A DNA stretch of 64,000 bases. Source: Haladaptatus sp. R4. Its GTDB lineage: Archaea > Halobacteriota > Halobacteria > Halobacteriales > Haladaptataceae. Position 1 is the first letter of the stretch. Each line of letters starts with the position of its first letter. Shown here in pieces: positions 27,214 to 51,258 of the stretch. Where the stretch lies: contig NZ_LWHG01000011.1 in the NCBI RefSeq assembly GCF_001625445.1, positions 930,001 through 994,000 of the forward strand, given 5' to 3'. Position numbers and translations under genes: made by a program. The notes beneath the pieces are model-generated. The model had not been told where the DNA came from and made no database searches. It worked only from the letters and a program-made list of their open reading frames with translations.

Positions 27214-27237
27214 CTATGAACCCTATGTCGAGTGAGG

Positions 27238-27248
27238 GTATTTAAACA
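27238..27248 (-). promoter_or_regulatory. TATA box of orc1
   Basis: TATTTAAACAT (read on plus) is centred about 30 nt upstream of the orc1 start codon, the spacing of leaderless haloarchaeal transcripts. An origin-type repeat begins 9 nt further upstream. Confidence 0.55.
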
Positions 27249-27320
27249 TACCTCCATACTGCCGCTGTAATTATCGAGATAGGATGGTAGACGGTGTATC
27301 GAAGCTGTTTTACACCCCTC

Positions 27321-27425
27321 ATTGCCGTTGTAACGGACCGGATTGCCGCTGTAAAAGCACGGATCGTCGTCGTAAAAGAACGGACCGACACCGTACCGGG
27401 CCGGGTTGCCGCTGTAAGTTCGGCG
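27321..27425 (+). repeat. Five tandem 21-bp origin iterons
   Basis: Units start at 27321, 27342, 27363, 27384 and 27405, exactly 21 bp apart. The common core is ATTGCCGCTGTAA followed by a spacer ending ACGG or CCGG. Units 1, 2 and 5 are clear; units 3 and 4 are degenerate but keep the phase. 21 bp is two helical turns, so bound proteins would lie on one face of the DNA. Confidence 0.8.
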
Positions 27426-27452
27426 AGCTTTCGTGATAAATTCAGCGAAGTA

Positions 27453-27629
27453 GTTCGGAACGACGACGGAATCGGACCGACATCGAGAGTCGGGACGACG
27501 ACGGAATCGGACCGACATTGAGGGTCGGAATGACGACGGAATCGGACCGACATTGAGGGTCGGAATGACGACGGAATCGGAACGACACTGAGAGTCGGAA
27601 TGGTCGATGATCGGACCGACATCGGTGTT
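27453..27629 (+). repeat. Five 35-bp tandem repeats inside the origin
   Basis: Units start at 27453, 27489, 27524, 27559 and 27594. The unit is GTCGGAATGACGACGGAATC followed by GGACCGACATTGAGG. The first unit is 36 bp and the last diverges after 9 bp. The period is not a multiple of 3 and no single frame crosses it as a protein repeat, so it is not coding. Confidence 0.85.
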
Positions 27630-27851
27630 CTGGTTATCGGACTGTTCTTCGAGTGCCACGAGGTTTCTGATGCGAGGGAGGATATCGATTGGGTGGGAGT
27701 TGCATGGACACCGCGTTGCCGTTGTAAACGGGGTGAAGAGGTTCTGTTTCCCGCGAATATTGACCTTTTGTTGTGGAATTCTTTTCTCTCGACCCTGGAC
27801 TGCCGTTGTAAACGCGCGTTTCCGTCGATTGTTTGATCCGTTTGTCGGGGA

Positions 27852-27878
27852 CCCCACGTTGCCGCTGTAAGTGTGGGG
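27852..27878 (+). repeat. Origin recognition box-like element, left copy with G-run
   Basis: CCCCACGTTGCCGCTGTAAG continues as TGTGGGGG. This is the longest form of the origin motif, ending in a G-string. Its first 22 bp recur exactly inverted at 28241-28262. Confidence 0.75.
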
Positions 27879-28239
27879 GTGTGTGGTGGAGGGGAAGGGC
27901 GGGGTTTCGGGGGGACGGTTTGATCTGAAGTCCACACTGGTCCGGCAGGGACAGGCGCTGATAACACGAAAGACACTGTCTACGTACCGAGAAACGATAC
28001 TCTCTATAGGTCAAAAACGACAGCACGATTTCAGCTGTAGACAAACCGCGACCGAGTCGCTAGTTCCGGTTTGCGACTCTCTCGGGGGATTGTTGGTAAA
28101 ATAGGTATATAACCCTATTGCTTCGCCCATTGTTGTTGTTGTTCTCTTATATGACTTTTTACCATCATCATATCGTCTCTGGCCAACTCTTACAATCGGC
28201 AATTTTCCCCGTTTCCCGAAGAACACGGCCTTTAACTCC

Positions 28240-28262
28240 CACTTACAGCGGCAACGTGGGGT
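28240..28262 (-). repeat. Origin recognition box-like element, inverted right copy
   Basis: CACTTACAGCGGCAACGTGG plus GG is the exact reverse complement of the left copy at 27852. The two boxes face each other across about 360 bp that include the AT-rich segment. Confidence 0.75.
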
Positions 28263-28319
28263 CTCCGACAATATTCTCTGAATACATCAGAGGTCTACCT
28301 TGTAACGGTCTTCTTCGTA

Positions 28320-35096: not shown

Positions 35097-35112
35097 GGCA
35101 ACCGAAGTACGT

Positions 35113-35203
35113 CACGCTGGTCGAAAAAGGTGGGTGGTCACGCCGGTCGAAAAAGGTGGGTGGTCACGCCGGTCGAAAAAGGTGGGTGGTCACGCTGGTC
35201 GAA
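35113..35203 (+). repeat. 26-bp tandem repeat before phzF-like gene
   Basis: About 3.5 copies of CACGCTGGTCGAAAAAGGTG followed by GGTGGT, starting at 35113, 35139, 35165 and 35191. They lie in the roughly 200-bp gap between paralogue 2 (divergent) and the PhzF gene. The T/C variation (CACGCT/CACGCC) alternates between copies. Confidence 0.85.
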
Positions 35204-50869: not shown

Positions 50870-51185
50870 GAAAGGGGCCGCCCGTTCGTGTTTACGTGGT
50901 CGTCTGCGCGAGCAACTATTTTGGCCGGGCGGTGTCGCCGCGAGCGAAGCGAGGGGCGGCTCGGGAGAGCAACGCTCTCCCGGCGTGGAGAGGCCAAATA
51001 TCTCGCGTCAGCGACCGCGAACGGGCGGGGGCTTTCGGGTCTGCCTCCCAGCAACTCTAGTCACAAGAATATCAAAAAACTTCGTAGCGAGCGGGCGGGG
51101 GACTTTCGAAGTGGTCTGCTTTCCAGCAACTGTAATCGCAAAACAACAAAAATCGTCTCGTAGCGAGCGGGTGGGGGCGTTCGAA
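50870..51185. repeat. Large hairpin repeat with tandem arms, haloarchaeal intergenic type
   Basis: GAAAGGGGCCGCCCG (50870) pairs with CGGGCGGGGGCTTTCG (51022-51037); inner CTATTTTGGCC (50916) pairs with GGCCAAATA (50992). At the core is a perfect 9-bp hairpin CGGGAGAGC/GCTCTCCCG (50962-50982). The 3' arm is then repeated as GCGAGCGGGCGGGGGACTTT (51087) and TAGCGAGCGGGTGGGGGCGT (51161), about 75 bp apart. I recall similar GAAAGGGGC elements between genes in other haloarchaea but not a name for them. Confidence 0.6.
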
Positions 51186-51258
51186 GTTCGTTCACTTTTC
51201 ACAACCTATCTTCGCCGAATCCCCATCTTTACCTCTCTGAGTCCACTCACCCACAACT

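Follow-up and report, generated by a model that had tools for sequence, protein, structure and literature searches.

The locus beside this orc1/cdc6 gene raises the question of what its short direct repeats are and whether their regular spacing is under selection. It lies in a stretch of 64,000 nucleotides of Haladaptatus sp. R4 (the window), in which the initial annotation described five phased 21-bp iterons at 27321-27425 and took the retained phase as a sign of selection.

An ORB array in a predicted replication origin

Five contiguous head-to-tail 21-bp units occupy 27313-27417, upstream of orc1/cdc6 (Table 1). The gene is transcribed away from the array. Among named relatives, the closest is Haladaptatus sp. 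DYF46, whose Orc1 is 94% identical. Units 1, 2, and 5 match the core TGCCGYTGTAA perfectly. The unit 3 core at 27365 (CGTCGTCGTAA) clearly resembles an origin recognition box (ORB), with 0.27% of window positions reaching its score. The unit 4 core at 27386 has a marginal ORB score, within the top 3.3% of window positions, and unit 4 thus rests mainly on its position. It is found at +126, near the slot of the fourth ORB in two relatives (L009 and L010, +129/130).

Table 1. Features of the orc1/cdc6 locus, in window positions
Feature	Positions	Strand	Details
orc1/cdc6 replication initiator, 409 aa	25984-27213	-	TIGR02928 at 2.7e-122; solved Orc1/Cdc6 relatives 2v1u, 2qby
TATA-like box (putative promoter)	27239-27246	-	TTTAAATA (read towards orc1); by sequence; ~30 bp before ATG
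Promoter-proximal ORB	27250-27270	+	exact core 27260-27270; in phase, 63 bp (3 x 21) before the first core of the array
Array unit 1	27313-27333	+	CACCCCTCATTGCCGTTGTAA; full ORB with C-string (G-string on the opposite strand)
Array unit 2	27334-27354	+	CGGACCGGATTGCCGCTGTAA; perfect ORB core
Array unit 3	27355-27375	+	AAGCACGGATCGTCGTCGTAA; degenerate ORB, in phase
Array unit 4	27376-27396	+	AAGAACGGACCGACACCGTAC; strongly degenerate, barely recognisable, in phase
Array unit 5	27397-27417	+	CGGGCCGGGTTGCCGCTGTAA; perfect ORB core
Separate 35-bp tandem array in origin region	27455-27622	+	unit TCGGAACGACGACGGAATCGGACCGACATTGAGAG; ~4.8 copies, not ORBs
Distal ORB	27707-27727	+	core 27717-27727
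Distal ORB	27791-27811	+	core 27801-27811; 84 bp after the preceding ORB
Full ORB, orc1 side of AT-richer stretch	27850-27870	+	core 27860-27870, C-string
AT-richer stretch between inverted ORBs, candidate unwinding element	27964-28213		AT up to 0.62 at 28114-28163
Inverted full ORB with G-string	28243-28263	-	core 28243-28253

Tandem Repeats Finder reports a period of 21 at 27321-27384 and 27351-27395, and a repeat search gives spacings of 21, 21, and 42. The full ORB (CACCCCNCGTTGCCGCTGTAA) is 21 bp long, so the 21-bp period corresponds to boxes laid end to end. End-to-end ORBs are also seen in Haladaptatus halobius (L002), where the C-strings are intact. In the window, the G-string is present in the inverted pair and array unit 1 and is absent or reduced in units 2-5.

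Exact cores are rare outside this region. The whole 4.9-Mb genome contains 11, and 8 of the 11 fall within this 1 kb. Both strands of 27214-28260 together hold eight exact cores, whereas 2000 shuffles gave 0.001 on average and never more than 1. The five phased units beside orc1 are therefore real, with a core density far above chance, and the two units originally called degenerate but in phase are units 3 and 4. The interval first given for the array cuts its first unit and misplaces its limits. The description as five units is correct as far as it goes and omits the in-phase core at 27260, the direct copies at 27717, 27801, and 27860, and the inverted copy at 28243-28253.

Haloarchaeal origins carry inverted ORBs with a G-string that flank an AT-rich stretch directly upstream of orc1/cdc6, and each initiator family has its own ORB sequence (Wu et al. 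2012, PMC3528665; Wu et al. 2014, PMC3936714). The locus has all of these hallmarks: an adjacent orc1/cdc6, inverted ORBs around an AT-richer stretch, and the G-string. By sequence and setting, the repeats are the ORBs of an ordinary haloarchaeal orc1/cdc6-adjacent predicted replication origin (27250-28263). As an origin, it is another example of a type already known. What the window adds to the published origins is an orc1-proximal array of direct ORBs in helical register. GC skew around the origin shows a local swing at 26-32 kb only and is not decisive.

Bacterial plasmid iterons are direct repeats of 21-22 bp. The array resembles them in being composed of head-to-tail repeats near two helical turns beside an initiator gene. 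An iteron plasmid origin, with a Rep initiator beside the repeats, was rejected because the adjoining initiator is Orc1/Cdc6 and not an iteron-binding Rep; the origin is also of the ORB type, with inverted boxes.

The separate 35-bp array has no counterpart of comparable strength elsewhere in the genome and is not seen in the aligned relatives L009 and L010. It shares the stretch CGGACCGACA with part of array unit 4. The window has two further tandem arrays, at 35111-35203 (26 bp x 3.6, 97%) and 51017-51187 (75 bp x 2.3, 80%).

Box spacing among orthologous origins

Orc1 orthologs, taken at E<=1e-140, are found in 72 of the 392 genomes of the order and in 25 of 95 genera. On this distribution, membership of the universal haloarchaeal oriC1 family, whose initiator occurs in all genomes, was rejected. 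The intergenic DNA of every ortholog was compared in one common orientation.

Distances between consecutive boxes cluster at 21/22, 31-34, 42-46, and 63-65 bp; fewer fall at 84/85 and 104-106 bp. The two nearest relatives, with Orc1 94-95% identical, have spacings of 63-22-44 and 63-22-45, compared with 63-21-63 in the window, and the exact 5 x 21 form is thus local to the window species. Exact conservation of 21 bp was rejected, as relatives show 22, 44/45, 32/33, 63/64, 84/85, and 104-106 bp. The initial annotation had proposed comparing spacing in related origins and looking for the array outside this strain. Spacing does vary with respect to 21 bp, but not in phase, and the kind of array is found elsewhere even though its exact form is not.

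Several layouts recur. A Natronorubrum-like group (L058-L060) and a Natrinema plasmid (L134) have boxes at 0, 22, 86, 108, and 150; G104 (genus g39) has them at 0, 21, 85, 106, and 148, and Halorussus at 0, 22, 85, and 106. The module 22-64-22-42 (or 21-64-21-42) recurs in carriers that sit in divergent parts of the Orc1 tree, and from the box offsets we infer one ancestral module. H. halobius and H. salinisoli keep 84/85-105/106-126/127, together with a degenerate box (9/11) at +21/22. Members of the Natrialbaceae have 63/64 followed by 32/33, often twice per origin. A 63-32-bp ORB triplet is present twice in the Natrialbaceae origins L050, L064, L074, L076, L077, L090, and L091, with one copy close to orc1 and the other farther away, in the direction of the inverted ORB.

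Near orc1, boxes are 21/22, 32/33, 42-45, 63/64, 84/85, or 104-106 bp apart, with a best-fit period of 10.5-10.6. On the assumption of independent intervals, which shared ancestry violates, a scan of periods from 7 to 16 bp peaks at 10.5-10.6 with p ~0.0002, the floor of the test (genus representatives, 100 offsets; also 19 distinct architectures); when the nine unique interval values alone are used, a much stricter test, p at 10.5 is 0.007; and when every interval is pooled with one value per family, the signal is only weak (p = 0.047 at 10.5 and 0.21 across the scan), since the distal intervals carry no phase. A late-interval control is biased by the deliberate omission of 31-34 and 63-65 bp and is not main evidence.

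The evidence least affected by shared ancestry is the contrast between length and sequence. Between genera of one family, spacers of the 63-bp interval have a mean identity of 36%, versus 80% for the adjoining ORB; for the 64-bp interval, the values are 31% and 76%. Of the 48 loci in family f8, 43 have a first interval of 63-65 bp, and the third interval of the same regions ranges from 22 to 215 bp. The 63/64-bp length recurs in families f1 and f5. Spacing is thus conserved more than sequence, as the alignment proposed with the initial annotation was meant to ask. Its reading of the repeats as Orc1 sites beside orc1 is supported. Its suggestion that phase is kept and spacing selected is supported for the helical register (multiples of ~10.5 bp), above all for 63/64 bp, and not for the exact 21-bp unit. 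Among the sequences compared, the register is largely conserved near orc1 across many genera, with spacer sequence nearly randomised.

Exceptions exist. In families f15 and f6, steps are 100-104 (once 113) and 35-37 bp, of which 35-37 and 100 bp break register. A spacing of 34 bp is also among the exceptions, and the 44/45 bp of the nearest relatives is 0.2-0.3 turn off register. One locus (L065) has 19 forward ORBs, mostly in 33-36-bp steps that drift out of the 10.5-bp register. Another (L085, G206) has an orthologous orc1/cdc6 with an upstream region that lacks a recognisable ORB of the window type.

No 10.5-bp phasing is seen in a sister Orc family that is ~53-55% identical and has another ORB; its mean cosine is -0.17 to -0.18, and its first-to-second-box distance ranges from 46 to >200 bp. 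The register is therefore no general by-product of haloarchaeal box spacing, and phasing as a general haloarchaeal ORB rule was rejected. Box spacings in the sister family (L018-L033, L103-L131; ORB TTTCCRGTGA) are weakly enriched near multiples of 11.5 bp, possibly by chance; this hint (n = 27) shrank to a mean cosine of 0.33 once loci were added.

Sources of the conserved register

The array is best read as the orc1-proximal ORB module of the origin, in which register-spaced Orc1 monomers would form an ordered complex (probability roughly 0.7). Three other accounts of the spacing were weighed.

The strongest of these, though unlikely, is that the phase is history only. Tandem duplication of a 21-bp ORB would leave phase behind, distances of 42, 63, 84, and 105 bp would be arrays with decayed middles, and the register would not be selected. 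In favour of this account, the full ORB is itself 21 bp, abutting copies exist in H. halobius, and units 3 and 4 resemble decayed copies; as tandem duplication followed by point mutation also keeps phase, these degenerate units alone show no selection. Among relatives, L011 and L012 have a degenerate box at +21/22, and 63, 84, and 105 are multiples of 21. Against it, the very common 32/33-bp spacing amounts to 1.5 units. The 63/64-bp intervals contain no clear relic ORBs at +21/+42; of 41 offsets, the highest there is 20 (z 2.3). Moreover, the length is still 63/64 bp at 31-36% spacer identity, where neutral indels are expected. It is the comparative data, not the lone sequence, that support selection on spacing.

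Control of orc1 transcription, rather than of initiation, is a less probable reason for the spacing. Here the proximal ORBs would be a phased operator beside the promoter. In almost every locus the ATG and the first ORB are separated by a near-constant 44-61 bp, with the ORB just beyond the TATA-like box, and in most clades phasing is limited to the orc1-proximal module. This would suit an operator, but the Natrialbaceae repeat the 63-32 spacing in a distal module on the inverted-ORB side, hundreds of bases away from the promoter. The ATG and the first ORB are also either 44-56 or 60/61 bp apart, and the module persists in both classes.

It is very improbable that the array only titrates Orc1, with box number important and spacing irrelevant: extra ORBs do restrain Haloarcula hispanica oriC2, likely by titrating Cdc6E (PMC3936714), but titration predicts no spacing constraint, and the known titration cluster lies downstream of its gene, where no ORBs were found for orc1 at the window locus (L008).

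A predicted Orc1 complex and its significance

For the ordered complex, the conserved register most likely points to initiator proteins aligned on one face of the DNA. In DNA-bound structures, one Orc1/Cdc6 monomer is seen per ORB, asymmetric contacts orient the monomer, and the DNA is underwound and bent (PMC6742236). The Aeropyrum pernix and Sulfolobus Orc1-ORB complexes (2v1u, 2qby) are similar to the window protein in being Orc1/Cdc6 with AAA+ and winged-helix parts. They hold one oriented monomer per ORB (PMC6742236), and their relatedness to the window locus is at the protein level only.

Each ORB would accordingly be expected to bind one Orc1 monomer with a fixed polarity. Boxes 21-22 bp apart would abut, since the full ORB is ~21 bp, and boxes 32, 42-44, 63/64, 84, and 104-106 bp apart would still share one face. 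Contacts between monomers may be direct or depend on looping or wrapping, within an ordered and perhaps cooperative complex. Such a complex could strain the AT-rich DNA flanked by the inverted boxes and help opening and MCM loading there. It probably has a second role, touching the orc1 promoter and repressing orc1, given the position of the first ORB just past the orc1 TATA-like box. In the window, the stretch from third to fourth box appears to have grown by 18-19 bp relative to the nearest relatives, giving in-register 21-bp slots of which two would have decayed or never been perfect. The anatomy and its conservation are observed in the sequences; assembly, unwinding, and repression are predicted from them.

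Bacterial oriC arrays of DnaA boxes are alike in working, as box positions and spacing are critical for the initiator complex (PMC6742236), and differ in using another initiator family. In archaea, genera differ in the number, orientation, sequence, and spacing of their ORBs, and direct evidence for an ordered initiator complex is composed of a few in vitro reports (PMC5333045). Whether ordered Orc1/Cdc6 multi-protein complexes form on archaeal origins in vivo is unsettled (PMC5333045; PMC6742236), and higher-order initiator assembly is reviewed as not a general prerequisite in archaea (PMC6742236). ORB spacing is not mentioned in the main text of PMC3528665 or PMC3936714, and none of the open-licence papers listed on ORBs and archaeal origins contains 'helical turn'. 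In the main texts of the open-licence papers searched, no description of a conserved helical register for this Orc family turned up, and the register is provisionally new relative to them.

A layout that keeps register, and a 63/64-bp length held despite scrambled sequence, are comparative evidence for an ordered Orc1 complex. More tentatively, origin function in this patchily distributed haloarchaeal Orc1 family may depend on a stereospecific multi-Orc1 complex, with ORBs in register over ~150 bp, comparable to bacterial DnaA complexes. If true, such a complex would contrast with reviews that deny a general archaeal need for higher-order assembly.
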